Part shown: positions 2,587 to 27,612 of the stretch, piece by piece | How positions within the stretch are numbered: the first letter of the stretch is position 1 | How the letters are laid out: every line of letters starts with the position of its first letter | IMG/VR virus record: IMGVR_UViG_3300048548_000193 | Coordinates: 1 to 27,612 of that record | Length of the DNA: 27,612 nt | Origin: a virus | Direction: 5' to 3' (one strand) | The notes under the pieces: model-generated | Told to the model about the DNA's origin: nothing | Database searches by the model: none | The model's input: only the letters and a program-made list of their open reading frames with translations | Program-made: the position numbers and the translations under genes

Positions 2587-2996
2587 AGGGCTGGGCCGCG
2601 CTCTGGGTGACAGTAACGTTTCTGTGCCTTGATGGACACAATTTGCTTATCATCAGCATATACGGTGTGTATAAGCCCGTCTGCAACGCATTTGACGATG
2701 TTATCTAAGTCAGGGGTGGATGTGTGAGAGATAACCCCATATTCAGCTTCTAATCGTTTTACTTTGGGCCACGACTTGGGGATCTCCATGAATGCTACAA
2801 TCTCCAGCACCACGGGCCGTTTTGTTTGATCGACATTCTGCTTAACCATCTGACCCCAAGCAGCCGCGTGTAAACGACGTTCATAATCTCTGGTCTTGTT
2901 TGGGGTGTAAATGTGACCCGCTTTAGTGAACCGTGGACGCCCTTTACCAACAGGCTGACCCGACAATTCAATCTCTACTTTTGTTAGTTCGATCAC
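2550..2996 (-). CDS. rusA: RusA-type Holliday junction resolvase
   Basis: 148 residues. The GQPVGKGRPRFTKAGHIYTP start and the catalytic block STPDLDNIVKCVADGL...YADDKQIV match RusA, a dimeric endonuclease that cuts four-way DNA junctions. D96, D98 and D115/D116 correspond to the acidic residues needed for metal binding. The start is a GTG at 2996 with AAGGAG five bases upstream. It is the only leftward gene among the rightward early genes, and its last 37 bases overlap the end of the HNH gene. It would resolve branched intermediates produced by the annealing protein encoded upstream. Confidence 0.92.
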   Translation of the reverse strand: MIELTKVEIELSGQPVGKGRPRFTKAGHIYTPNKTRDYERRLHAAAWGQMVKQNVDQTKRPVVLEIVAFMEIPKSWPKVKRLEAEYGVISHTSTPDLDNIVKCVADGLIHTVYADDKQIVSIKAQKRYCHPERGPALYVSVSWTDEKE

Positions 2997-3035
2997 ACGA
3001 TCTCCTTAGATTTGTGTAAAAACTGCACCCAGTCG

Positions 3036-3068
3036 TTACATTTTTTTTCACTATTTACAATTTTTTTT
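3036..3068. repeat. Two phased T-tracts in the rusA/early-cassette divergent region
   Basis: Two runs of eight T, each preceded by TTACA or TTACAA, begin at 3041 and 3061. They are 20 bases apart, close to two helical turns. Such phased tracts bend DNA and can act as upstream elements. They lie between the rusA start at 2996 and the promoter-like element at 3080. A/T tracts also precede the other two copies of that element, at about 3893-3914 and 5159-5180. Confidence 0.4.
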
Positions 3069-3079
3069 GCATGACCCCC

Positions 3080-3120
3080 TTGTATGTCTGATAAAAATAA
3101 CTATATGTATATTATAAGAG
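3080..3120 (+). promoter_or_regulatory. Promoter/operator element, copy 1
   Basis: First of three related blocks (also at 3926 and 5191). It begins TTGTATG, continues with CTGATAAAA and contains CTATATGTATATTATAAG, a degenerate form of the palindrome that is perfect in copies 2 and 3. Possible sigma-70 boxes are TTGTAT with TATATG 16 bases later, or TATTAT further on; neither fits perfectly. The end of the palindrome is 22 bases before the ATG at 3141, with AAGGAAG between. It should drive the 3141 gene and perhaps the genes after it. Confidence 0.6.
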
Positions 3121-3140
3121 ACAAAAAGGAAGTTTTTAAA

Positions 3141-3356
3141 ATGGAAATTAAAATTCACAGCGACATGATCTGGTTAAAAGATAACTCAAAAGCACACGAA
3201 TATGAAGTTGAGGTTTGGACAGATCAAGGGGACACAGTTTTTGTTGGAGTAGATGCTACCAACAGAACCCAAGCAGTTTCTTTTGTAAGAAAGTTTGCTT
3301 TTAAGTGGATAGCTGGAACTGGTCACGTAACTGCATCATGTAACATGACTGCATAA
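3141..3356 (+). CDS. Small early protein, unknown function
   Basis: 71 residues from the ATG at 3141, which has an AAGGAAG site 8 bases upstream. An earlier in-frame ATG at 3084 lies inside the promoter-like element and lacks a ribosome site, so I do not use it. The protein alternates beta-like segments (HEYEVEVWTDQGDTVFVGVD) with a short helix (RTQAVSFVRKFAFKWI), suggesting one compact alpha/beta domain. No known family is recognised. It is the first gene behind promoter copy 1 and is followed by a G6/C6 hairpin. Confidence 0.65.
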   Translation: MEIKIHSDMIWLKDNSKAHEYEVEVWTDQGDTVFVGVDATNRTQAVSFVRKFAFKWIAGTGHVTASCNMTA

Positions 3357-3362
3357 TCAACA

Positions 3363-3380
3363 GGGGGGCCTAGTCCCCCC
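3363..3380 (+). promoter_or_regulatory. Intergenic G6/C6 hairpin before a ribosome site
   Basis: GGGGGG, a CCTAGT loop, then CCCCCC. The hairpin is followed at once by AGAAAGGAGA and the ATG of the next gene at 3397. There is no U-run, so it is not a standard intrinsic terminator. A role in mRNA processing, stability or partial attenuation is more likely. Similar elements are at 4329 and 5748. Confidence 0.5.
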
Positions 3381-3396
3381 AGAAAGGAGATCTCAA

Positions 3397-3726
3397 ATGA
3401 GATTATATACTAATAAATCTGGGGCATGGTTTGGGACACAAGCTGACGCCCGTCGTAGTTCACCCAGAAACTGGGTTGAGGTTGATGTGCCTACATCTAA
3501 ACAGGATCTCATCAACTGGTTGAATGCCAATCAAGTGGGCGGTGGTTATGACCAGCCCGTGAGCAATGAGCCAGCCATTGAGACTGAGCCATCACATGAA
3601 AAGCTTAATAAGCTGTCAGCAAGCTGGGTGTCATGGGCCTTAGATACTCTCATCAGAGGGGACAGGGCTGAAGCAATCGATATGCTCAAGCTTGGACTAA
3701 AAGCACAGAGGGGTGTGGGTCAATGA
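3397..3726 (+). CDS. Early cassette protein, unknown function
   Basis: 109 residues. An AAAGGAGA site lies just before the ATG. The N-terminal third has short hydrophobic and aromatic stretches (SGAWFGTQADARR, NWVEVDVP). A Pro/Glu-rich linker follows at about residues 53-68, and the C-terminal third is a predicted helical region (SWVSWALDTLIRGDRAEAIDMLK). This reads as two small domains joined by a flexible linker. The stop overlaps the next ATG (ATGA). No family recognised. Confidence 0.65.
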   Translation: MRLYTNKSGAWFGTQADARRSSPRNWVEVDVPTSKQDLINWLNANQVGGGYDQPVSNEPAIETEPSHEKLNKLSASWVSWALDTLIRGDRAEAIDMLKLGLKAQRGVGQ

Positions 3727-3929
3727 CCCGCGCTCAAATCATCGGGGCCATCGGTAACCCTCACCTACAATTGTACAGGGGGGACGGATACTTCTATTTC
3801 GTTTACGACGATGGCAAGGATCGATGGGAAGATCAGTCCGTGTACGTCTACAGATTAAATCATCTGTCATATGATCGATGGGTTGATGAGGGAAAAAGTT
3901 TTTTAAAAAAAGTTCTATCTGATACTTGA
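3723..3929 (+). CDS. Small early protein, unknown function
   Basis: 68 residues, coupled to the upstream gene by an ATGA overlap. It is rich in aromatic residues and beta-like strands (HLQLYRGDGYFYFVYDDGKD, SVYVYRLNHLSYDRWV), so it may be a small beta-sheet domain. Its end overlaps the start of promoter copy 2 by a few bases. No relative with known function comes to mind. Confidence 0.65.
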   Translation: MTRAQIIGAIGNPHLQLYRGDGYFYFVYDDGKDRWEDQSVYVYRLNHLSYDRWVDEGKSFLKKVLSDT

Positions 3930-3966
3930 ATGTCTGATAAAAGTACCTATATGTATATTATAGGAA
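3926..3966 (+). promoter_or_regulatory. Promoter/operator element, copy 2
   Basis: This block begins TTGAATG and shares most of its length with copy 1. It contains CCTATATGTATATTATAGG (3946-3964), a perfect inverted repeat with six-base arms CCTATA/TATAGG around a seven-base spacer. The palindrome ends 21 bases before the ATG at 3986, with AAAGGAA between. An A/T-tract stretch precedes it at 3893-3914. It could be a host-type promoter, a phage-polymerase promoter ending in TATAGGAAAC, or an operator overlapping a promoter. Confidence 0.65.
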
Positions 3967-3985
3967 ACAGAAAGGAAATTTTGAA

Positions 3986-4321
3986 ATGGGTTTAATAGTT
4001 CACATTTACAGAGACACTGGCATGGATTGCACAATGGACGGTATCTCAAAATTATTCGATTACTTAACAGTCGTAAATGTTGAGGGGCCATTTGAGCCAG
4101 AAGAAAAACGTCCAGCCGTTATGATCGTAGATGACAAGCCTTGTGGCAGACCATACCCCAAGCTAGTGCCAGCCACATGGAATGATGTGAAAGGTGAATG
4201 GGTTCGAAGTGAGGGCTGGTATATGGCTGGCGGTAACTATGGGGCAACCTCAGACAGTCGATTTAAAGCTGAAGGTATGGTCCACGATATTCTACCTATT
4301 CACGATAGAATTGAAAATTAA
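3986..4321 (+). CDS. Early cassette protein, unknown function
   Basis: 111 residues, first gene after promoter copy 2, with an AAAGGAA site 8 bases before the ATG. A short frame opening at 3930 inside the promoter is out of phase with it and ends at about 3995. The sequence mixes strands and turns (MGLIVHIYRDTGMDCTMDGI, PAVMIVDDKPCGRPYPKLVP, EGWYMAGGNYGATSDSRF) without a known motif. It is followed by a UUCG hairpin and the papain-like gene, probably in one transcript. Confidence 0.65.
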   Translation: MGLIVHIYRDTGMDCTMDGISKLFDYLTVVNVEGPFEPEEKRPAVMIVDDKPCGRPYPKLVPATWNDVKGEWVRSEGWYMAGGNYGATSDSRFKAEGMVHDILPIHDRIEN

Positions 4322-4328
4322 TATCACG

Positions 4329-4342
4329 GGGGCTTCGGCCCC
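4329..4342 (+). promoter_or_regulatory. Intergenic UUCG-loop hairpin
   Basis: GGGGC, TTCG, GCCCC: a very stable stem capped by a UUCG tetraloop. A C-rich spacer and GAGAAAGGAT then lead to the ATG at 4377. No U-run follows. It is of the same design as the element at 5748. Confidence 0.55.
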
Positions 4343-4376
4343 TACCCACCCAGCAAATTAGAGAAAGGATTTGCTT

Positions 4377-5138
4377 ATGAAAAACTTAAACATCAAACCA
4401 GTGCTTCACGTAAAAGGCGATAAGAACCGATACTGTGGCCCATCAGCAATTAGTGCTATCACTGGTATGAATACTGGCGAAGCTGCACGGATGATCCGTC
4501 ACGTTGGTGGACGCAAGTCAGTCAAAGGATCTTTCGATTGGGAAGTCCGTGAAGTTCTGGAGCGTTGCGGCATCAGAAGCGTCCGTGAAAATTTTGGTCT
4601 TAAACTTGGCAGATCAAAAGGACCAACACTAGCAGCTTGGCTTCGACACACTGTGAAGGAGCGCACAGCTAAACGTGTATTCCTGATCGTGGCTGGCTGG
4701 CACTACCAGTTAGTTCAAGGGCGTCGCATTGTGTGCGGGATACTTGGGGAGCCGAAATCGATCCGTGACAAAAAGGTTAAGCGTCGCGCCCGTGTAGCTG
4801 AAGTGTTTGAGCTTCACAGCATGGGTAAGATCTGCAAGCCACCTGAAGCTATAAAACCCAAGCGTCCAGTTAACTCTGATTACAGTACAGCCCAGCGCAT
4901 GGCTAAAGCTATGAACATCGACATCGACATCGATAAACTTAGCAATGGCGAAAGCCAAAAGTGGATTGGCGGTTACGACGATGTGGACGAAAACGGTGAG
5001 GACATCGACTTCACTGAGATTGGAGTGATTGAATACCATTGCTGTTATGATTGGTGGGAAGTCTGCGACACCCTTAATTCAATAGCCGAATACAGAAAGG
5101 AGCATGGCTACAATAGAGCAGTAACTATCCCCGCTTAA
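4377..5138 (+). CDS. Papain-like (C39-like fold) cysteine-peptidase-type protein
   Basis: 253 residues from the ATG at 4377, with AAAGGA seven bases upstream; a TTG two codons earlier is possible. The N-terminal domain has the hallmark NRYCGPSAISAITG with C20 as candidate nucleophile. A beta strand then carries the candidate histidine H109 (FLIVAGWHYQLVQG). In related folds the next strand gives Asp or Asn; here the equivalent position appears to be C120 (RRIVCGILGEP), so the triad may be incomplete. A basic stretch (KKVKRRARV) follows. The C-terminal 90 residues hold an Ile-Asp repeat and an acidic GGYDDVDENGEDIDF region. Target unknown. Confidence 0.6.
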   Translation: MKNLNIKPVLHVKGDKNRYCGPSAISAITGMNTGEAARMIRHVGGRKSVKGSFDWEVREVLERCGIRSVRENFGLKLGRSKGPTLAAWLRHTVKERTAKRVFLIVAGWHYQLVQGRRIVCGILGEPKSIRDKKVKRRARVAEVFELHSMGKICKPPEAIKPKRPVNSDYSTAQRMAKAMNIDIDIDKLSNGESQKWIGGYDDVDENGEDIDFTEIGVIEYHCCYDWWEVCDTLNSIAEYRKEHGYNRAVTIPA

Positions 5139-5146
5139 TTGCGGGG
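5129..5146 (+). promoter_or_regulatory. Hairpin over the stop codon of the papain-like gene
   Basis: CCCCGC, TTAATT, GCGGGG, with the TAA stop (5136-5138) in the loop. It is followed by CCCTCCCTG and a run of A, not T, so termination is unlikely to be of the simple intrinsic kind. It lies just upstream of promoter copy 3. Confidence 0.45.
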
Positions 5147-5190
5147 GTAACCCTCCCTGAAAAAAAATAAAATAATTTTCTTGACAACCC

Positions 5191-5230
5191 TTGCAATGTA
5201 TTACGAAAGCACCTATATGTATTATAGGTT
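5191..5230 (+). promoter_or_regulatory. Promoter/operator element, copy 3
   Basis: TTGCAATG, a divergent middle, then CCTATATGTATTATAGG (5212-5228), a perfect inverted repeat of CCTATA/TATAGG with a five-base spacer. TATATG lies 17 bases after TTGCAA, and an additional TTGACA is at 5181. The palindrome ends 21 bases before the ATG at 5250, the same distance as in copies 1 and 2. The A/T-rich stretch 5159-5180 precedes it. Confidence 0.65.
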
Positions 5231-5249
5231 AAAGAGAAAGGAACCTAAA

Positions 5250-5741
5250 ATGTTAGATCAAATTAATAATGCATTCGCAGAATTAGATGAAAAAATGCAC
5301 GTTGCTGCTATTGAATTTACAAAAGAAAAGAAAGCAAACTTTCAAAAAGAGTATATGAAAAAGCAAAACGAATACCGTGATTTAATTTCTAAAGGAGAAA
5401 TGAAAGGGGACCGTATTTATGGAGCTATGTTTTATTGGACTGTGAACTATTACGGCTCTAAAGCAATGATGAATTTAATTGATGGACATGGTTTACAAGA
5501 TGCTTTGGAAAATGTTGAAAAAAATGTCCAAGCAAAAATTGACCGACGTAATGCACAGATCATAAGGGCATTGAGAAAAAAAGAAGTTAATGAAATTCCA
5601 GAGTTTAAATTAGTTGAATATTCAAACGGTGTGGAAGGTTTCTTCGACGTAGCTGGTCACAAAGTACACATCAGAACAATCTTAGCTGGCGGTTACAATA
5701 TTCAATGCCTACACGCCAGAACTTTAATCAACATCAAGTAA
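5250..5741 (+). CDS. Helical early protein, unknown function
   Basis: 163 residues from the ATG at 5250, chosen because AAGGAA lies 6 bases upstream. The open frame extends back to 5181 but through the promoter element. The first 110 residues look largely helical and charged (AFAELDEKMHVAAIEFTKEK, NVEKNVQAKIDRRNAQIIRA). The last 45 are beta-like (FKLVEYSNGVEGFFDVAGHK). No family recognised. It is the first gene after promoter copy 3. Confidence 0.65.
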   Translation: MLDQINNAFAELDEKMHVAAIEFTKEKKANFQKEYMKKQNEYRDLISKGEMKGDRIYGAMFYWTVNYYGSKAMMNLIDGHGLQDALENVEKNVQAKIDRRNAQIIRALRKKEVNEIPEFKLVEYSNGVEGFFDVAGHKVHIRTILAGGYNIQCLHARTLINIK

Positions 5742-5747
5742 TTAATA

Positions 5748-5763
5748 GGGGGCTTCGGCCCCC
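5748..5763 (+). promoter_or_regulatory. Intergenic UUCG-loop hairpin before a ribosome site
   Basis: GGGGGC, TTCG, GCCCCC, followed at once by AGAAAGGACTTTCTC and the ATG at 5779. AGAAA and TTTCT flank the GGA, so the ribosome site itself could fold weakly. There is no U-run. Confidence 0.55.
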
Positions 5764-5778
5764 AGAAAGGACTTTCTC

Positions 5779-6042
5779 ATGGCAACTTTTTCTTCTGACG
5801 CAATGTTGGATTTCATGATTGAGGGTAACGTGGTTTCCCTTTTGGAAATGATGTCGATGTTTGGGGTTTGCAACCCAGCCGCTGAACTAACCAAGATCCG
5901 CAAGGATGGTTGGATTATCGAAAGTAGGCGTGTGCCTATGACTAAGATAATGGTACGCATGAATAAGGTCATGCAGTTCACACCACCCAAGCAACTCCCT
6001 CACAAGGAATGCTTGATGATGGAATACTGGATAAGCAAATGA
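5779..6042 (+). CDS. Small winged-helix (HTH_55-like) protein
   Basis: 87 residues. The segment SLLEMMSMFGVCNPAAELTK followed by IRKDGWIIESRRV matches the small phage winged-helix domain (HTH_55 type), in which a helix-turn-helix leads to a Gly-Trp wing. It could be a DNA-binding regulator of the cassette; the palindromes at the three promoter copies are candidate sites, but this link is speculation. The gene is preceded by a UUCG hairpin and overlaps the next ATG (ATGA at 6039). Confidence 0.6.
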   Translation: MATFSSDAMLDFMIEGNVVSLLEMMSMFGVCNPAAELTKIRKDGWIIESRRVPMTKIMVRMNKVMQFTPPKQLPHKECLMMEYWISK

Positions 6043-6323
6043 GTTACGCTTGTCCCATATGCCGCGACACTAAGCGGATTACGCACACCTTCAGGACTGA
6101 ATACTTTGGTCCTGAACATCGAATGACTGAGATTTGCAGATGCGATACCAGCATGACTGATTATGAGCTTGCCCTCATCACTGGGGAAATGGACGCCAAT
6201 TGTCTCAGCAATACGCCAAAACAAAACGAAGAACTATTGGATCGATTGTTTGATGGCAAATGTCAGACTACCAAATTGGAATATGGTAGACGTTACAACA
6301 TACCTGTTGAGAAAGGGATCTAA
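6039..6323 (+). CDS. Small zinc-knuckle protein
   Basis: 94 residues from the ATG at 6039, which overlaps the upstream stop (ATGA). An in-frame ATG at 6009 lacks a properly spaced ribosome site. The N-terminus has a CPICRD pair and then EICRCD, giving a likely CxxC...CxC zinc site within the first 40 residues. The remainder is acidic and helical with no motif. Function unknown; it may bind nucleic acid or a partner protein. Confidence 0.6.
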   Translation: MSYACPICRDTKRITHTFRTEYFGPEHRMTEICRCDTSMTDYELALITGEMDANCLSNTPKQNEELLDRLFDGKCQTTKLEYGRRYNIPVEKGI

Positions 6324-6324
6324 A

Positions 6325-6720
6325 ATGGGTGAAAAAAAATATACTTTTTACGATAGCTTTGAGAAAAGAAGTATCACTGATGTCGAAATCGAAGTCATGA
6401 ATAAAGCTAGGAAGGAACTCCACAAGCGTGGATACATTCCTATCGAATATGAGCTTGTGTTCTTATCAAGCTGGGGTGGGCCACGCATTCAGAAATTCAG
6501 CATCGTTGCTGACTGTGCTGGTGGTCCAGAACGTGGGCTGGATAGATTGTTCCGTATTTGGGTGGACTACAAAATTTCTCCAGTTTCAACAAAGTCTGTG
6601 CTAGATTTATTTCACGTAACAGAAAAGATTACGAATAAAGAAACGGGGCAAGTTTATTATAAGGATGAAAATAACACTTATAATGAAAAAGGTATAAGGA
6701 CTAAAGTTTATGAAGATTGA
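6325..6720 (+). CDS. Early cassette protein, unknown function
   Basis: 131 residues from the ATG at 6325, directly after the preceding stop and with GAAAGGG upstream. The frame is open further upstream but only inside the previous gene. The sequence has a helix (DVEIEVMNKARKELHKRGY), hydrophobic strands (IEYELVFLSSWGG, KFSIVADCAGG) and a hydrophilic tail (NKETGQVYYKDENNTY). No known family. Its 3' end holds the start and ribosome site of a 30-residue gene. Confidence 0.62.
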   Translation: MGEKKYTFYDSFEKRSITDVEIEVMNKARKELHKRGYIPIEYELVFLSSWGGPRIQKFSIVADCAGGPERGLDRLFRIWVDYKISPVSTKSVLDLFHVTEKITNKETGQVYYKDENNTYNEKGIRTKVYED

Positions 6721-6802
6721 TTGGGAAGATTTAACGATTGCAGCTATTGCAATTACAATGGTCACCGCTTGGATACTTGGCGTAAGCTGGGGGTACTTTT
6801 AA
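6710..6802 (+). CDS. 30-residue single-pass membrane peptide
   Basis: A short frame between two larger genes. Its ATG at 6710 has AAGGA at 6696-6700, and its TAA shares a base with the next ATG (TAATG at 6800-6804). The peptide starts with a charged MKIDWEDL and continues as one hydrophobic helix (TIAAIAITMVTAWILGVSWG) ending in YF. Placement, coupling at both ends and the clean membrane segment support a real gene. A role at the inner membrane is likely; nothing more can be said. Confidence 0.6.
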   Translation: MKIDWEDLTIAAIAITMVTAWILGVSWGYF

Positions 6803-6984
6803 TGATCGGGCTAAACCCAGAGCAACAACAGACGCTAAAATATTTGCGTCAACAGGTTGATCGATTGTCCGAAGAAAGATTTCGTAGGGACGCGCGTCGA
6901 ACAGTTAACTCAGAATATCATTACGCCAGATTAGAGCTAACACGTTATACTTCACAACTTAGGCAGAAAGGACACAATATATAA
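6802..6984 (+). CDS. Small charged helical protein
   Basis: 60 residues from the ATG at 6802, coupled to the membrane peptide through TAATG, with a GGGGGT stretch about 8 bases upstream. The frame is open back to a TTG at 6721, but that region encodes the membrane peptide in another frame. The protein is rich in Gln, Arg and Glu and looks like one long helix or coiled coil (NPEQQQTLKYLRQQVDRLSE). Its stop overlaps the next start (TAATG). Function unknown. Confidence 0.55.
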   Translation: MIGLNPEQQQTLKYLRQQVDRLSEERFRRDARRTVNSEYHYARLELTRYTSQLRQKGHNI

Positions 6985-7349
6985 TGGTACAAGTAATAGA
7001 TGTGGACGTATCATTTGACAATTTCAAAGAAACATTTGGACGTACTCCAACAGAAATAGAATTGTCGATGCTGATGAAACTTCAGGAAAAAAAAGACAAA
7101 GCTAAGAAAGAAATAGAACGACGTAGAGCTTTGGGTATGGGTTCAGAAAGAAAAGAGCCAATAAGAAAGCCCCTGATAGCAGTTTCCCCGCGTGGCATGA
7201 TGATAAACAAAATGTTGAAGTATGGCTTAGAGCCGATACAAATAGCTGATGTGCTTAACACTACTTTTGAAAAGGTCATAAACATGATGGCCCGATATAG
7301 GCTACCACGAAAAAATGTCAGGTTAGTTAAGCCTACTGACTACAAGTAA
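6984..7349 (+). CDS. Early protein with a possible helix-turn-helix C-terminus
   Basis: 121 residues, the last rightward gene. The N-terminus is an amphipathic region (FKETFGRTPTEIELSMLMKL) followed by a very basic helix (KDKAKKEIERRRALG). The C-terminal 50 residues (MINKMLKYGLEPIQIADVLN, then TTFEKVINMMARYRLPRKN) look like a helix-turn-helix with a basic end. A DNA-binding role is possible. It is coupled upstream through TAATG and downstream faces the leftward late genes. Confidence 0.58.
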   Translation: MVQVIDVDVSFDNFKETFGRTPTEIELSMLMKLQEKKDKAKKEIERRRALGMGSERKEPIRKPLIAVSPRGMMINKMLKYGLEPIQIADVLNTTFEKVINMMARYRLPRKNVRLVKPTDYK

Positions 7350-7354
7350 TCGTG

Positions 7355-7417
7355 CGGGTGGTACATACGGTGTTTAAAGTGAGAGCAAAAAACAAGACAT
7401 CAAAAAAATACCACCCG
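7355..7417. repeat. Long-range inverted repeat at the early/late convergence
   Basis: CGGGTGGTA (7355-7363) and its exact complement TACCACCCG (7409-7417) enclose 45 AT-rich bases. A competing pair, GCGGGT (7354) and ACCCGC (7423), is also present. No classic hairpin plus U-run is seen in either direction, although seven T follow the right arm when read leftward. It occupies the only gene-free stretch between the convergent blocks, so a shared stop signal or a small RNA are the main options. Confidence 0.4.
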
Positions 7418-7442
7418 ACACAACCCGCCTATCAGAAAAGTT

Positions 7443-7916
7443 CTAATCCATCAATTCAAAATGCGGTCCGTCAATAAAAGGACGCCTTGATTGAGAACGT
7501 CTTAAATCAATGTAAGCATTCATCGCTTCTTCCATTGTACCTTCCCACTTACGAATATCCATTGGATACTTAGCTTGAGGTGTACCCCATGCGGCTCCCC
7601 AACAAATAGCAACACCTAATTGTGTGGCTGCTTCCTTTATCGCGTCTGCAACATTATCATAAAGATTAAGCTCCCAAGATAATCTTCCATTTATAAACGC
7701 TCCCAGATCTACAGCTTTACCCTCTAAGTGTTTACTTTTTAAAGTTTGGCTGGCTCCAGATGCCACCAATTCTTTTTGCTGTTCCAAAGTTCTCATACCT
7801 TGTAAAATTCCAAAATCAATTGATGATAAAGTAATAGCCATTTTACAGACTTCTTGCAGACTTTCATCTACACCTTCTAGCCTATCAAGACTGCGTCTAC
7901 TTAATTTAAAACTCAT
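7443..7916 (-). CDS. M15-family peptidoglycan endopeptidase (endolysin)
   Basis: 157 residues. The zinc-peptidase signature of the M15/VanY group is clear: SKHLEGKAVDLGAF gives H63 and D70, and DGPHFEL near the C-terminus gives H152. These would hold the zinc that cleaves cell-wall cross-links at lysis. There is no signal peptide, so export would depend on the holin encoded directly upstream, whose stop overlaps this ATG (ATGA). It is the last gene of the leftward late block. A Trp-rich insert (KWEGTMEEAMNAYIDLRR) precedes the final motif, as in other phage relatives. Confidence 0.88.
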   Translation of the reverse strand: MSFKLSRRSLDRLEGVDESLQEVCKMAITLSSIDFGILQGMRTLEQQKELVASGASQTLKSKHLEGKAVDLGAFINGRLSWELNLYDNVADAIKEAATQLGVAICWGAAWGTPQAKYPMDIRKWEGTMEEAMNAYIDLRRSQSRRPFIDGPHFELMD

Positions 7917-8290
7917 TTTTTTGTATCCGTTTTGTTAAGTTTATCGAAACTTCTTGCGCCAGCCATTCCAAGCATTCCTAAAAGTAAAGGCATCATAACT
8001 GACATATCAGCTTGCGGAACAATGACACCAAACCCAGCGCATATTGGGCTGACAATGTAATTCACACCTAGCCCTATTCCCCCCAGCCATCCTATGAGTG
8101 GCCTCCAAGACGATTGGAACCAGTTGCCCTTGGCGTCATTTTTAAGTATTTCTAACTGAGCAAGTGCAAGCTCCTGAGAATGACGGTCTGCCATTGTAGC
8201 GACCTCATGGGCTAGTTTAGCAGCCTGATCCTTATCAGGGATCACCTTATCAATTATGGAACTTACAGGGCCTATCAGCTTGTCTAACAA
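7913..8290 (-). CDS. 3TM holin, GTA type
   Basis: 125 residues. A charged, helical N-terminus (KDQAAKLAHEVATMADRHSQ) is followed by NWFQSSWRPLIGWLGG and then two to three membrane segments, the pattern of the GTA_holin_3TM family. It should form the inner-membrane lesion that releases the M15 enzyme. The start is a TTG at 8290 right after the upstream stop, with AGGGAG 8 bases before it. The tail is basic (KLNKTDTKK). Overlap with the endolysin couples their expression. Confidence 0.85.
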   Translation of the reverse strand: MLDKLIGPVSSIIDKVIPDKDQAAKLAHEVATMADRHSQELALAQLEILKNDAKGNWFQSSWRPLIGWLGGIGLGVNYIVSPICAGFGVIVPQADMSVMMPLLLGMLGMAGARSFDKLNKTDTKK

Positions 8291-8638
8291 TTATTTGTCT
8301 CCCTCTATACTCATGGATGTTTTCTTATCCGACTTTGCAGAGTAAGCATTGAAGCCCATAAACGCAGCAACGACCCCACTAGCCGCAATCACGTATACAG
8401 AAGCTATGTCCGTAATCAACGAAGCTGCTTGATCAAAGCCCAGAACACTAGCCAATAATATAATAAATGGATAAATCAGCATCCCTGCTAATGCGAAGCC
8501 AGTATAGCGCCTTTCAGCATCCCTTTTTAAATCCCTATCATTTATCTCTAAACGTCTTTCTTCTAGGCGTAGCTTTTCCCATTCCAATGGCTGTATAACA
8601 CCATCGCCATTACTGTCAGCTTTGTCGAACTCTTTCAT
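8291..8638 (-). CDS. EF-hand membrane protein of the lysis cassette
   Basis: 115 residues. The start holds a textbook EF-hand calcium loop, DSNGDGVIQPLE (residues 8-19), with D1, N3, D5, G6, I8 and E12 all present. A charged helix follows (EKLRLEERRLEINDRDLKRD), then two membrane segments (about residues 46-66 and 80-97) and a basic tail. An AAGGGG site precedes the ATG. It lies directly before the holin. Calcium-linked control of a membrane event is an inference. No named family recognised. Confidence 0.7.
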   Translation of the reverse strand: MKEFDKADSNGDGVIQPLEWEKLRLEERRLEINDRDLKRDAERRYTGFALAGMLIYPFIILLASVLGFDQAASLITDIASVYVIAASGVVAAFMGFNAYSAKSDKKTSMSIEGDK

Positions 8639-8741
8639 TCAGAAAACCCCTTGCTACTCTAAGGTCACTTGTCTGTATAACAACTTTACCATTTTTTGTA
8701 TACACTACAAACCTATTTTGCTTCACCTCTACTATCGTCAT
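8616..8741 (-). CDS. 41-residue overlapping protein
   Basis: A short frame (MTIVEVKQNRFVVY..., ending RGFLNERVRQS) fills the gap between two larger genes. It overlaps the upstream gene by 29 bases and the downstream EF-hand gene by 23. It reads as two or three beta strands (FVVYTKNGKVVIQTSD) and a basic helix. No strong ribosome site precedes the ATG, so translation would depend on coupling. The gap and the protein-like composition support it; the missing ribosome site argues against. Confidence 0.45.
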   Translation of the reverse strand: MTIVEVKQNRFVVYTKNGKVVIQTSDLRVARGFLNERVRQS

Positions 8742-8952
8742 CTAATAATGCTATACATTCAATAATCATGTCGTTGGCTGTGACTAAGACACTAGCCTTG
8801 TCACGTTCTATTAAACAAATTTCTTTATCGGGGTAAGTATCCAATAAATAATATTGCAAATGATCCGTTCGCACAAAGTGAAACCAAACTAACGCATAAG
8901 CTACCAAGGCCAGTAATCCCAAATATTTACCCACCCCAGATGGTGCAGCCAT
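8713..8952 (-). CDS. Small membrane-anchored protein, lysis cassette
   Basis: 79 residues with one N-terminal membrane segment (GKYLGLLALVAYALVWFHFV, about residues 8-27) and a polar C-terminal domain (DTYPDKEICLIERDKASVLV). The topology suggests an anchor with the rest in the periplasm. No lipobox is seen. The first 52 bases overlap the end of the upstream gene in another frame, which is unusually long for this cassette. A spanin-like role is possible but unsupported by motifs. Confidence 0.6.
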   Translation of the reverse strand: MAAPSGVGKYLGLLALVAYALVWFHFVRTDHLQYYLLDTYPDKEICLIERDKASVLVTANDMIIECIALLDDDSRGEAK

Positions 8953-9362
8953 GCCGTAGCTCCAATAGCAGACGCTGTGAGTAGGAAAAAGATACCAGCT
9001 AGGGTAAGAGCTAGCTCTTGACGTTCTATGGCTTCACGCTTCGCTATACGCTCTGCCTCACGTTTTTCAACAAGTATTTCTTTTCTGATTTTTAATAGCT
9101 CTGTCCATTTTGACGGCCCAAGTTGTTCATCAATATATTTTTTTAAGGACGCTTCAGCTTCTTCATAAGCAAGCTTATCCGCAAAGGTTGAAAGAGCTTC
9201 TTGATTTACGCTTGTAAAGGACCGCTGCATTTTACGTGAATGATTTTTCTTTGCAGTATCAGCGCTATCAAAAAAATTGCCTATCTCTTTTGACAAACTT
9301 GCAAGTGTTCGCCCTGCTTTTATAGCACCAGTAATTGACGTAACGATTGAAACGGGGTCCAT
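8901..9362 (-). CDS. Tail-anchored membrane protein, lysis cassette
   Basis: 153 residues. The N-terminus (PVSIVTSITGAIKAGRTLAS) is mildly amphipathic, the middle is a long charged helix (ILVEKREAERIAKREAIERQ), and a membrane segment (LALTLAGIFFLLTASAIGAT) lies near the C-terminus, followed by a Trp-rich end (HHLGWVNIWDYWPW). It looks anchored by its tail. The ATG at 9362 follows the upstream stop closely. Function unknown; position implies lysis or envelope work. Confidence 0.62.
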   Translation of the reverse strand: MDPVSIVTSITGAIKAGRTLASLSKEIGNFFDSADTAKKNHSRKMQRSFTSVNQEALSTFADKLAYEEAEASLKKYIDEQLGPSKWTELLKIRKEILVEKREAERIAKREAIERQELALTLAGIFFLLTASAIGATAWLHHLGWVNIWDYWPW

Positions 9363-9364
9363 GA

Positions 9365-9760
9365 CTACATCCCATCACGGCGGCTAAACTCTACTGTCTT
9401 CTCTAATATTGCCACTCTGGATTGAAGCTTAATGATCTCCATCATATGAGCAGCCATCCCCCCAAGGTCCTCATTTATCATATCGATGTCATCCCAAATG
9501 GAATTATCACCATCTTCAATCTCTTCATAAACCTCTGACAATATATCAATAATCTCTTGCAGATGGTCAGTATTACGCTGCACATCTCTAATTAGATTAG
9601 TCTTATCGGTAGCGTTATTCTCAACAGTCAGAATGTTTACAGTTTCTTCAAGATTAGATATTGTACTAGCTTGCTGAGCCGTCCACCAGATGAAACCTCC
9701 GATTTGGGCTATCACAATCCCCACAACCGCAATGCTTACCTTTGGTAGTTTATCACTCAT
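9365..9760 (-). CDS. N-anchored coiled-coil protein (candidate i-spanin)
   Basis: 131 residues. One N-terminal membrane segment (VSIAVVGIVIAQIGGFIWWT, residues 8-27) is followed by a long predicted coiled coil (ISNLEETVNILTVENN, LQEIIDILSEVYEEIEDGD, KLQSRVAILEKTVEF). This is the topology of an inner-membrane spanin such as Rz. No partner lipoprotein with a lipobox was found in the cassette, so the call is tentative. It overlaps the upstream gene's stop by one base. Confidence 0.55.
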   Translation of the reverse strand: MSDKLPKVSIAVVGIVIAQIGGFIWWTAQQASTISNLEETVNILTVENNATDKTNLIRDVQRNTDHLQEIIDILSEVYEEIEDGDNSIWDDIDMINEDLGGMAAHMMEIIKLQSRVAILEKTVEFSRRDGM

Positions 9761-10035
9761 TAAAACCCGTTAGCTACTAACTTACTAAATTCACCAGACA
9801 TTAATTTTTTCTTGATGTATTCATTAAGTTCTTTGCTACCTAATTTTGCGCCACATTCTTTCATCCACATTTCTATAACGACAAAAGGAATAGACCCAGC
9901 CAGCCGCATATCTGCTTTACGATTGTGACCTTCGATGTTTCTCTCTTTATTAAAATCCAAAATATCCTGAATATCCTGAGATCTTTTAATAATTACTTTA
10001 CCATCTTCGTCAAAATACTGTGATTGAACACTCAT
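9760..10035 (-). CDS. Conserved-looking post-capsid protein, unknown function
   Basis: 91 residues. The segments IIKRSQDIQDILDFNKERN and ADMRLAGSIPFVVIEMWMKE resemble short proteins encoded after the capsid gene in many podoviruses; I recall the SIPxVVxExW pattern but cannot name a family. The C-terminus is a basic helix. It overlaps both neighbours by a few bases. A structural or assembly role is inferred from position only. Confidence 0.58.
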   Translation of the reverse strand: MSVQSQYFDEDGKVIIKRSQDIQDILDFNKERNIEGHNRKADMRLAGSIPFVVIEMWMKECGAKLGSKELNEYIKKKLMSGEFSKLVANGF

Positions 10036-24668: not shown

Positions 24669-25368
24669 TTTTATGCTCCATTTTATGCCAGAAAAGACGT
24701 CTATATTTATTGGTAAAGAGTGTGTTTAATTGAAAATTATGTTTTTTTCTTTTTCGATCATCAATTAAACTAACCTCACTTTTAAATATTTCTCTTTTAA
24801 AAGGTATTACTTGAGCAAGGGGCGTTCCTTTTGGAATTAAAAATTCACCATCGCCTCCTGTCCATACAAACGGAAAATTTATATTATTGTAATAAGTGTC
24901 AGTATCAACAACACCATCAAAAAGTTTAAACCTTTTTTCCATTCTATTAAGGGGTGACATAAAATAACAACTATAACCTTTCGGAGTTTGTATTACCCAA
25001 GGATTATGAAACTTTAATGGTATGGTTCCAAAAGGCATATCTTGTAGCGGATACCCTTCTACCTGATCAATGTTATGTGGAGACATTCCAGAAGATAATT
25101 CTTTTTCTGCAAATTCAAATTCAATATTATCGTTTTCTGCTTTAACAAAAACATCACAAAAAAATGGTATAATATATCCTTGATTGCAAGCTTCTAAAAA
25201 TGGAACACATTTCTTTACAGAGCCACTTTCTGGATGTCTAGTAAGTGAAGGCGGTAAATTTTTAAACCAGTCTGGTAATGCCTTACTTGCTACGAAAGGA
25301 TGAGGATAAGCATCAAGTATTTCTTGAGGGGCTTGAAATTTTATTATATTTTTATTTTTTATTTTCAT
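24655..25368 (-). CDS. Unknown protein, paralog of the next upstream gene
   Basis: 237 residues. Notable segments are ALPDWFKNLPPSLTRHPESG, KKCVPFLEACNQGYIIPFFC, WVIQTPKGYSCYFMSPLNRM and FLIPKGTPLAQVIPFKRE. It may belong to the DUF6065-like group of marine phage proteins, from memory only. Its layout (a beta segment ending in GTPLAQVIP, preceded by a TP-GYS-SPLN strand) recurs in the gene at 25370-26050, so the two look like distant paralogs. The gene is AT-rich. Function unknown; position suggests a fibre or host-range accessory. Confidence 0.58.
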   Translation of the reverse strand: MKIKNKNIIKFQAPQEILDAYPHPFVASKALPDWFKNLPPSLTRHPESGSVKKCVPFLEACNQGYIIPFFCDVFVKAENDNIEFEFAEKELSSGMSPHNIDQVEGYPLQDMPFGTIPLKFHNPWVIQTPKGYSCYFMSPLNRMEKRFKLFDGVVDTDTYYNNINFPFVWTGGDGEFLIPKGTPLAQVIPFKREIFKSEVSLIDDRKRKKHNFQLNTLFTNKYRRLFWHKMEHKNESI

Positions 25369-25369
25369 A

Positions 25370-26050
25370 TTAAGTTTTCATCCAATTTACAGGCATTTTT
25401 TTTGCACCCATTTTATAAATACCATGTTTAAGGAAAAAATTAGGATAGTTTGTCATATACTTATAATATAAATCAGTGTCATAAGTGTGCTTCAATTTTA
25501 CTCTTCTATCTGAAATAGGAAAAATATTTAATAGCGGCTCTCCAAAATTCCATGAAATATTTCTATGCTCACCTTTAGGAACATACATGAAAATGTTAAG
25601 TGCTTGTTGATATTTAAATTGCACAATACCTGATGGAATTTGGAAATCTAAAAAGTTAAAGGGCGTCTGACAAACAACAAATTGCACATCTTCTTTACAC
25701 CTTATAAAAACTGGTGAAGTAATTTTAAAAATACTCATATTTTTTGATTTACAAAAATCTGGCGCATGTTTTGTATGAAGATCTAATTTTACTTGATCAT
25801 CTACAACAGTAGAAAATCTAAGTTCATCTGGCGTTAATGTAACCTCCATGTCAGTCCACGATTTTAAGGTTAAACTTTTTTTTTGGGTTTCTATCATGCC
25901 GTAACAGCTAGTGAAGTCTGGTCTATTATGTTTAGTAGGCCGCATACAATCCTTTTTATCTTTCCCAGTATGACAGAGAAGGTCTACACCATATAGATAT
26001 TCTGGCATGATTACTTCCAATCTTATCGGCCTTTTTATAATGCTTAACAT
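25370..26050 (-). CDS. Unknown protein, paralog of the next downstream gene
   Basis: 226 residues from the ATG at 26050, which overlaps the upstream stop (TAATG). An internal ATG at 26008 has a better ribosome site (GGAAG six bases before), so the true start is uncertain. It has the same layout as its neighbour: KITSPVFIRCKEDVQFVVCQ, TPFNFLDFQIPSGIVQFKYQ and NISWNFGEPLLNIFPISDRR. Cysteines occur near the start (LLCHTGKDKKDCMRPTKHNR), possibly a metal site. No named family. Confidence 0.56.
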   Translation of the reverse strand: MLSIIKRPIRLEVIMPEYLYGVDLLCHTGKDKKDCMRPTKHNRPDFTSCYGMIETQKKSLTLKSWTDMEVTLTPDELRFSTVVDDQVKLDLHTKHAPDFCKSKNMSIFKITSPVFIRCKEDVQFVVCQTPFNFLDFQIPSGIVQFKYQQALNIFMYVPKGEHRNISWNFGEPLLNIFPISDRRVKLKHTYDTDLYYKYMTNYPNFFLKHGIYKMGAKKMPVNWMKT

Positions 26051-27090
26051 TAAGATTTCATAATAAACGCCAAAGTAAAGAATACTGGTGTAGTTGTTAG
26101 CGCCGAACCGCTTCCAGTTGCTCCAGTGTTACCTGATATGTTGTGCGTGTGATTTCCAGAGTTACCAGTATTTCCACTAAAACTGTGACTATGGTTTCCA
26201 GTGTTGCTTGTATTGAAGTTGTGACTGTGGTTTCCAGTGTTATTTGTTTGTTGGTTGTTAGTTAGTCCTCTTGCGCTTTTGTTATTAAAAATCCAAGTTT
26301 CAATATGATAATAACTACCAAAATTGTTGCTATTGTTTTTATATAAATTATGACCATGACCACCAGTATTAGAAGTGCTTCCACTATGAGAGTGAGCGCC
26401 AGTGTTGCTAGTGTTTCCGCTGAAGCTATGAGAGTGATCACCGCCAGCCGCCGCCGCCAAATTGCCACTGTCATGCGTGTGACTTGGCAAGTTTCCTTCT
26501 GCTAGCGTAACAGTGTTCGATCCACCAGTGCTATTTGTATTAGTTGAACCCTCACGCCCTATAATAAATTTTTCTGTTAAATCTGGCGTACTGTTATTTC
26601 CATCGCATAAGTGCCAGCCTGACGGAATATTTCCATTTGTTCCTGACCACATTGCAATTAAACCTGACGGAATAGAAACAATACCTGTCAGCGCAGAACC
26701 GTCACCAGTTAAAGCTGTAGCCGCCAAAGTACCTGTTACTGTCGCACCTGTCGCTGATGCAGCAACTTTTGTAACGCCAGCGTGTTGCAATTCATTAAAG
26801 TCAGTATTGATGGCTGTCACTGATACTGTAGCAGTACCAGTTAAAGAAATAGCATTATCGCTGTTGCTACTTTCGCTGGGCGTTCTTGTAAGTGACGTTC
26901 CACTACTACTATACGTTCCAGTGCCTATCTCAAAATTAGCACCTTCCTCAATTACATATTGGACAACATCACTGTTACTTACCCCAGCGTCTGCAAAGCT
27001 TTGAAAGCCTACAGAAGCACTACCTAATGTAACCGTACCAGTTCCAGTAGTGCTAGTCGTCATTTTGGCTCTGTTAAAAAGTTTCGCCAT
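26050..27090 (-). CDS. Tail collar-domain fibre with HxH repeats
   Basis: 346 residues. The N-terminal third is a beta-rich shaft (TGTGTVTLGSASVGFQSFAD). The tail collar domain follows: IPSGLIAMWSGTNGNIPSGW, then HLCDGNNSTPDLTEKFIIG. After it, seven HxH motifs (SHTHD, DHSHS, AHSHS, GHGHN, NHSHN, NHSHS, NHTHN) lie in Gly/Asn/Ser-rich repeats. In T4 gp12-like fibres such motifs from a trimer bind metal ions and stabilise the tip. It ends in PVFFTLAFIMKS, the standard end of collar proteins. AGGAG lies before the ATG. Confidence 0.78.
   Translation of the reverse strand: MAKLFNRAKMTTSTTGTGTVTLGSASVGFQSFADAGVSNSDVVQYVIEEGANFEIGTGTYSSSGTSLTRTPSESSNSDNAISLTGTATVSVTAINTDFNELQHAGVTKVAASATGATVTGTLAATALTGDGSALTGIVSIPSGLIAMWSGTNGNIPSGWHLCDGNNSTPDLTEKFIIGREGSTNTNSTGGSNTVTLAEGNLPSHTHDSGNLAAAAGGDHSHSFSGNTSNTGAHSHSGSTSNTGGHGHNLYKNNSNNFGSYYHIETWIFNNKSARGLTNNQQTNNTGNHSHNFNTSNTGNHSHSFSGNTGNSGNHTHNISGNTGATGSGSALTTTPVFFTLAFIMKS
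26140..26490 (-). repeat. Tandem coding repeats for HxH motifs
   Basis: Imperfect direct repeats of roughly 30-40 bases encode the seven HxH segments of the collar fibre (unit close to GNHSHSFSGNTGN). Several units are nearly identical in DNA, so they could recombine and change fibre length. One stretch (about 26265-26350) breaks the pattern with a non-repeat insert. Confidence 0.55.
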
Positions 27091-27102
27091 GACGATCTCC
27101 TA

Positions 27103-27534
27103 TTATGTAAGTGTTAAGATACCGTTAGTTCCAATATCTACTGTGAAAGTATCACCATCATTTAGCGTAAGTGATGATCCGTAATCATAATAACCTATCA
27201 ATGGATCTGCTGGTGACGTCACTGTGTCATCATAGATAATCACATATCTAAAAGCTGCCACTGCACCACCTGATGCTGTCAAAACTAAGTCACTAGCTGA
27301 TAGCTTATAAGTGCCAGAAGTTTGTGTGCTTGTGACACTTGCTAATGTTCGTGACGATAGATTGGTGTAAGAAATCTCTGTAATATTTCCTAAAATACCA
27401 TTTCCATCGGCCGCTGCGTTTGTTCCAGCCGTAGGATCTGTGTTAGAAAGAGCCACTTTTAAAGTATCTCCATCTAGGTCCATTGTGTTAGCCAGATTGA
27501 CCACAAAGTCATTTACTTTAGTAAAACTTGCCAT
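27103..27534 (-). CDS. Tail-region structural protein
   Basis: 143 residues. The start (FTKVNDFVVNLANTMDLDGD, then TLKVALSNTDP) matches a family of small virion proteins with NxxDLDxDTLKVAL-type starts. The rest is beta-rich (ILGNITEISYTNLSSRTLAS, FRYVIIYDDTVTSPADPLIG, YYDYGSSLTLNDGDTFTVDI). It is likely an adaptor or fibre-base protein. AGGAG precedes the ATG, which directly follows the stop of the partial upstream gene. Confidence 0.68.
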   Translation of the reverse strand: MASFTKVNDFVVNLANTMDLDGDTLKVALSNTDPTAGTNAAADGNGILGNITEISYTNLSSRTLASVTSTQTSGTYKLSASDLVLTASGGAVAAFRYVIIYDDTVTSPADPLIGYYDYGSSLTLNDGDTFTVDIGTNGILTLT

Positions 27535-27612
27535 TTAGTAACTCCTAATTTTAATTCTACGCCCAGAACCTGACGATCTAGCACGTTCTCCTTCAAAATT
27601 TATAGCAGAAAT
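27535..27612 (-). CDS. 3' end of a tail fibre or structural gene (partial)
   Basis: Read leftward, the frame is open from the window edge for 25 codons and ends in TAA at 27535, directly before the next ATG. The visible end (NFEGERARSSGSGRRIKIRS) is basic and Gly/Ser/Arg-rich, like the C-terminal tails of phage structural proteins upstream of fibre genes. The start lies outside the window. Confidence 0.5.
   Translation of the reverse strand: MSAINFEGERARSSGSGRRIKIRSY

Follow-up and report, generated by a model that had tools for sequence, protein, structure and literature searches.

The window analysed here, a virus contig of 27,612 bases (IMG/VR record IMGVR_UViG_3300048548_000193), carries on its plus strand three similar sequence blocks, which begin with TTGTAT at 3080, TTGAAT at 3926 and TTGCAA at 5191 and precede small genes whose ATG codons lie at 3141, 3986 and 5250, respectively. 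Judging from their sequence, the three blocks are most likely promoters. They have a common layout: TTGnAw, a gap of 16 or 17 bp, TATATG and a ribosome site rich in purines, with the ATG 59-61 bases past the TTG. The predicted promoter of copy 1 (3080-3107) consists of the -35-like TTGTAT (3080-3085), a 16-bp spacer and the -10-like TATATG (3102-3107); its spacer block, TGTCTGATAAAA, occupies 3085-3096, and the leader (3108-3140) contains a ribosome site, read from the sequence, at about 3126-3132. In copy 2 (predicted promoter 3926-3953), TTGAAT (3926-3931) and TATATG (3948-3953) are also 16 bp apart, with the spacer block at 3931-3942 and a leader (3954-3985) with a ribosome site at about 3971-3978. 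Copy 3 (predicted promoter 5191-5219) has a 17-bp spacer between TTGCAA (5191-5196) and TATATG (5214-5219), the spacer block TGTATTACGAAA at 5197-5208, and a leader (5220-5249) with a ribosome site at about 5235-5243. The ribosome sites and the A/T tracts upstream of the blocks, both claimed in the original prediction, are present.

An unbiased repeat search of the window returned the blocks as one repeat family of three copies, 49 nt long and 76-88% identical, in which copies 1 and 2 share 87% identity across 62 nt. The block core was found in none of 100 shuffled sequences, and TATATGTAT has three exact sites in the window, all of them within the blocks (0.21 expected), a number that no shuffle out of 100 reached; the repeat at these three places, as first predicted, is thus real. 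The close similarity of copies 1 and 2 might indicate non-functional recent duplications, brought in with the 5' flanks of duplicated genes, but this is exceedingly improbable, given that the first genes behind the three copies are unrelated and the likeness stops at the block, that the core is kept while the adjoining five bases vary, and that the element types stand before 26 gene families across phages. Further copies, always just 5' of start codons, were found in related genomes, so that the repeated promoter withstood this check of the original prediction and is well supported by the comparison: nine distinct window-type variants occur across five or six closely related contigs, a relative (G003) has four copies, and all nine keep TTGnA and TGTMTnAYRAAA-N5-TATATGTAT, with variation in the five intervening bases.

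The spacer block TGTMTnAYRAAA and TATATGTAT are also the parts conserved among the three copies in the window, and conservation of the blocks peaks 30-60 bases 5' of the ATG. Since the leader is conserved and the start codon follows at a constant distance, the blocks could act in translation or as an RNA leader (SAS-like or riboswitch-like) in place of a promoter. This is extremely unlikely in view of where the conservation peaks; moreover, the predicted folds of the leaders are weak (-0.9 to -4.0 kcal/mol), Rfam gave no match up to E=1, and the 13-bp SAS consensus, GGGATAGGAGCCC, had no match at up to two mismatches. The SAS and ESAS elements of cluster K mycobacteriophages are likewise repeated at a fixed distance from the starts of small genes, about half of them with an inverted repeat upstream, and the 13-bp SAS was proposed to act in translation (PMC3203893); SAS differs from the window blocks in sequence and position, and is absent from the window.

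The IMG/VR contig G002 is 99.99-100% identical to the window and circularly permuted: its positions 9971-33219 correspond to window 1-23249, its positions 1-2853 to window 24760-27612, and its positions 2854-9970 fill the part missing from the window, the whole genome comprising about 34.7 kb. Among the products of this genome are terminase, virion proteins, the single-strand annealing protein Sak, SSB and RusA, as well as a small helix-turn-helix (HTH) protein of the Cro/C1-like kind, whose gene is transcribed away from the early operon. With up to three mismatches allowed, the block pattern has exactly three sites in G002, on one strand, each before early accessory genes. TTGnA-N16/17-TATATG has four plus-strand matches in the 17 kb half of G002 with the early region (0.19 expected): the three blocks and, at 9815-9843, TTGTAT-N17-TATATG, which falls in the divergent control region 5' of the early operon. 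The main early promoter region, to judge from this match, seems to use the hexamers of the three blocks. A TGTAT-ATAGG-ATACA dyad overlaps TTGTAT-N17-TATATG in the divergent control region 5' of the window start (L187:9797-9865); it is possible that this dyad is an autoregulatory site of the Cro/C1-like protein.

Contrary to the original prediction, which found no perfect sigma-70 spacing, the distance between TTGnAw and TATATG is ordinary for sigma-70 promoters. TTGnAw would serve as the -35 and TATATG as the -10 element, read by the host's own sigma-70 RNA polymerase, and TTG is present in the three copies as well as in 9/9 lineage variants. Transcription would start about 6-9 bases past the -10 element, leaving a leader of 20-odd bases with the ribosome site. 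The carrier would be a lytic marine phage, probably infecting Rhodobacterales, with the cassettes in its early region; its nearest cultured relatives infect a Roseobacter strain, and two Roseobacter phages, CRP-901 and CRP-902, are reported to be strictly lytic and to have no RNA polymerase gene (PMC10149686). More than 60% of the sigma-70 promoters of several alphaproteobacteria lack T at position -7 and may depend on CarD (PMC8407463), and TATATG, which is without this T, is compatible with them. The promoters of that study and the window blocks have in common a TTG -35, a gap of 16-17 bp and a TATA-like -10 not ending in T; the blocks differ in being phage-borne, near-identical repeats with an extra conserved block or dyad in the spacer. 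We infer promoter activity and the use of sigma-70 and CarD. The window pattern was found in 0/394 genomes of the SB2 family.

The original prediction had proposed a phage-specific promoter that starts like TATAGGAAA. In favour of promoters for a single-subunit RNA polymerase of the phage itself, the blocks are phage-specific and TATAGG lies close to the presumed start in copies 2 and 3, and four relatives of CRP-901 were reported to have an RNA polymerase (PMC10149686). However, no RNA polymerase or sigma domain was found among the Pfam-scanned proteins (which included all large open reading frames of the window and the missing 7 kb), although a very divergent sigma factor is conceivable. TATAGG is not kept, being TATAAG, TATATG or TGTAGAG in relatives; the exact TATAGGAAA has a single site in the window, and its near-matches are as frequent as chance predicts; the elements sit before early accessory genes only; and the hexamers and their spacing fit host sigma-70, so that a phage polymerase is very unlikely. 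A search with PF00940 was empty for the contigs and for the control genomes too, and is not used as proof. The Pfam scan of the proteins also bears on a phage sigma factor like gp36 of phiEco32, which would recognise one element only, tAATGTAtA, located 6-8 bp 5' of the start. ATGTATA of copies 1 and 2 equals seven bases of the gp36 consensus (PMC8948821), and SU10 Pfam families include both the portal and the major capsid protein, but TAATGTATA at up to one mismatch occurs at a chance-level count and never inside the blocks, late genes lack the element, and the sister lineage lacks TATGTATA, making this sigma factor a highly doubtful explanation.

The inverted repeat CCTATA..TATAGG, on which the original prediction was centred, ends 22 bases (copy 1) or 21 bases (copies 2 and 3) 5' of the ATG, exactly as described; it is perfect in copies 2 and 3 and missing from copy 1, and it is not the conserved feature of the blocks. 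That this palindrome forms the functional core of the block, as an operator bound by a phage regulator, is very unlikely. The perfect 6-bp arms of copies 2 and 3 would favour such a role, but both outer pairs are kept by only 2/7 lineage variants, the gap between the arms is inconstant (7 bp in copy 2, 5 bp in copy 3), the inner TATA arms are part of the -10 region, and a perfect dyad with 6-bp arms arises by chance in 8-18% of the shuffles of each block. The palindrome is probably incidental to the AT-rich -10 region.

A more convincing candidate for an operator comes from the comparison of phage lineages. At orthologous positions, CRP-901 and CRP-902 carry another element, TTGTAATCTGTGACAnnTGTCA, here called C-type, with the dyad GTGACAnnTGTCAC within its spacer (five copies in CRP-901, four in CRP-902, none in 100 shuffles), and it was found on 35 more virus stretches, mostly in two or three copies each. 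In 71/71 distinct C-type copies a TAT/CAT hexamer follows TTGnnn after 16 bp (39 copies) or 17 bp (32 copies), which places the perfect dyad GTGACA-nn-TGTCAC in the spacer; hexamer gaps thus lie within 16-18 bp both here and in the window. The cassettes of CRP-901 are promoter-gp25-gp26 and promoter-gp27-gp28, those of the window promoter-p3141-p3397 and promoter-p3986-p4377; the second genes are about 60% identical (gp26 and p3397; gp28 and p4377) and the first genes differ. By this synteny of second genes, the promoters stand at matching places with different spacer sequences. The promoters of CRP-901/902 are therefore alike to those of the window in hexamer geometry and in orthologous cassette positions, but have GTGACAnnTGTCAC in place of TGTMTnAYRAAA, and GAGAGAGAGGAAA as the leader. 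A third phage group has TTG..TGTTAACn5GTTAACA, with the dyad covering the -10 position. The C-type site is absent from the window, and when isolate phages were searched at the DNA level for the window block, only chance-level matches were returned.

Two more phages have repeats of similar appearance. In a distant one, two copies of CCCCTTGATATATCTTGGGGTATCACTATATGTAT (L095:7342 and L095:8030) lie 5' of genes; they have TTG-N16-TATATG and another dyad, ATACCCC..GGGGTAT, over the -35, which may represent a fourth operator type. In the other (L106:5117 and L106:5921), two promoter-like repeats, TTGAAGTGGCCC..TATATAGGAT, stand before genes and have direct repeats in the spacer.

TGTMTnAYRAAA, which gives way to GTGACAnnTGTCAC or TGTTAACn5GTTAACA dyads at orthologous positions of sister phages, is most likely the binding site of a lineage-specific, probably phage-encoded regulator, which would switch all cassettes of the set at once. 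A spacer operator appears clear in the sister lineage and is plausible for the window. We infer the regulator and the sign of regulation alike; repression is more likely, as the putative site falls between the core boxes or overlaps them. One candidate is the Cro/C1-type HTH protein of the control region (gp12 in CRP-901), which is present in both main lineages with 34-42% identity. The winged-helix-like protein encoded at 5779-6042 (plus strand; HTH_39, E=0.003, below the Pfam cut-off), to which the original prediction pointed, is only a candidate, and a weak one; its distribution coincides exactly with the contigs that carry the window version of the promoter, but these are close relatives sharing most of their genes. 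As for a regulator from the host, GTGACAnnTGTCAC alone was found in 56/394 SB2 family genomes, with 1-2 copies each, somewhat more commonly than a reversed control; a large host regulon was rejected, but these occurrences make a host regulator of the sister phages conceivable. In two Rhodobacteraceae assemblies that were checked, the sole copy of GTGACAnnTGTCAC was on a contig that also holds the phage-type element.

Taken together, it is quite probable that each block is a promoter for the host sigma-70 RNA polymerase before an early accessory-gene cassette and that the spacer block is a regulator site. Several points weigh against this. TATATG agrees with TATAAT in 4/6 positions and has G at -7, which is weak by the Escherichia coli consensus, although the T at -7 is not required in alphaproteobacteria; a generic consensus scan did not pick the TTGnAw/TATATG pair; the host of the window phage is deduced from relatives; TGTMTnAYRAAA is not a dyad, and to regard it as a binding site is to rely on conservation among copies that might be recent duplicates; and the C-type copies were gathered with a pattern, their conservation being partly due to this selection. 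From the sequence comparisons we regard as real a set of predicted host-type early promoters, one per accessory cassette, whose position is conserved and whose putative operator appears rewired between phage lineages.

Such sets have parallels among the mycobacteriophages named above (PMC3203893) and among viruses of archaea. The intergenic repeats of halovirus HF2 are likewise short, located between virus genes and conserved in position within the genus, and they were identified as promoters by reporter assay (PMC8707807); they belong to an archaeal virus and are of the archaeal type, whereas the window blocks are predicted promoters of the bacterial sigma-70-like type and carry lineage-specific putative operators. 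In other archaeal viruses one conserved promoter likewise precedes many unrelated small early genes, and conserved early-gene regulatory sequences served to find anti-defence genes (PMC11065993). Those promoters are archaeal, and the anti-host role of the window cassette genes is putative. Little has been described of how such Roseobacter phages control transcription: promoters are not mentioned in the paper on CRP-901/902 (PMC10149686), and no description of this promoter set for these phages was found in the literature searched, the coverage of which was incomplete.

With the element types pooled across phages, 77 distinct promoter-start pairs cover 26 protein families, with 54-65 bases from TTG to the start. 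The clearest case of cassette exchange is the gene at 5250. Its similarity between the window and the contig L060 begins 89 bases 5' of the ATG and takes in the promoter. The contig L063 has no window-type element; its copy of the gene, together with the hairpin that follows, is 94% identical in DNA, but the similarity starts 3 bases before the ATG and the upstream region and promoter are different, which suggests that the gene is able to move between lineages without its promoter. Of 41 distinct regions upstream of its homologs in other phages, 20 contain a sigma-70-like promoter of their own between -75 and -45 (3.9 +- 1.8 in the shuffled control, maximum 9 in 200 shuffles). Comparison of the lineages suggests that operators change while promoter positions stay. 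A broader picture is tentative and somewhat less likely to be right than wrong: new small genes might receive a lineage-specific, operator-tagged host promoter, and a gene might be exchanged with its trailing hairpin, the promoter of the recipient replacing that of the donor, so that the promoter type would be both an address label for the phage regulator and a bait for anti-host genes in Roseobacter phages. The small genes behind the element are probably host-takeover genes. The element would indicate the small genes that are turned on at the same time, and a promoter before 26 unrelated families of small proteins offers a means, by sequence, to list the accessory and probably host-directed genes in a group of marine phages, an approach for which archaeal viruses provide the precedent.

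All cassette genes are on the plus strand. Cassette 1 starts with an orphan of 71 amino acids (3141-3356), followed by genes for proteins of 109 and 68 amino acids (3397-3929), the former about 60% identical to CRP-901 gp26. The first gene of cassette 2 (3986-4321) encodes a 111-amino-acid protein of phrog_6045, of unknown function, and the second (4377-5138) a 253-amino-acid protein whose 60% homolog is the second gene of the gp27-gp28 cassette of CRP-901. Cassette 3 starts with a gene for a 163-amino-acid protein (5250-5741) of a widespread phage family. Comparison of the cassette proteins with a defence library and the PDB gave nothing useful, and the 253-amino-acid protein had no Pfam match and an insignificant PDB match only; it contains a CGPSA motif and, later, a GWHYQ motif, which are reminiscent of papain/C39-like cysteine peptidases. 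The 163-amino-acid protein has at least 141 viral matches, an invariant AGGYNIQCLHxR motif near the C-terminus and a confidently predicted fold (pLDDT, the predicted local distance difference test score, of 92), with no PDB match at E<0.001. GC-rich hairpins directly follow the first genes of cassettes 1 (3363-3380), 2 (4328-4343) and 3 (5748-5763), the last of these being the one common to L063. None has a T-run on the plus strand, two have a TTCG loop, and each lies 5' of the ribosome site of the next gene.

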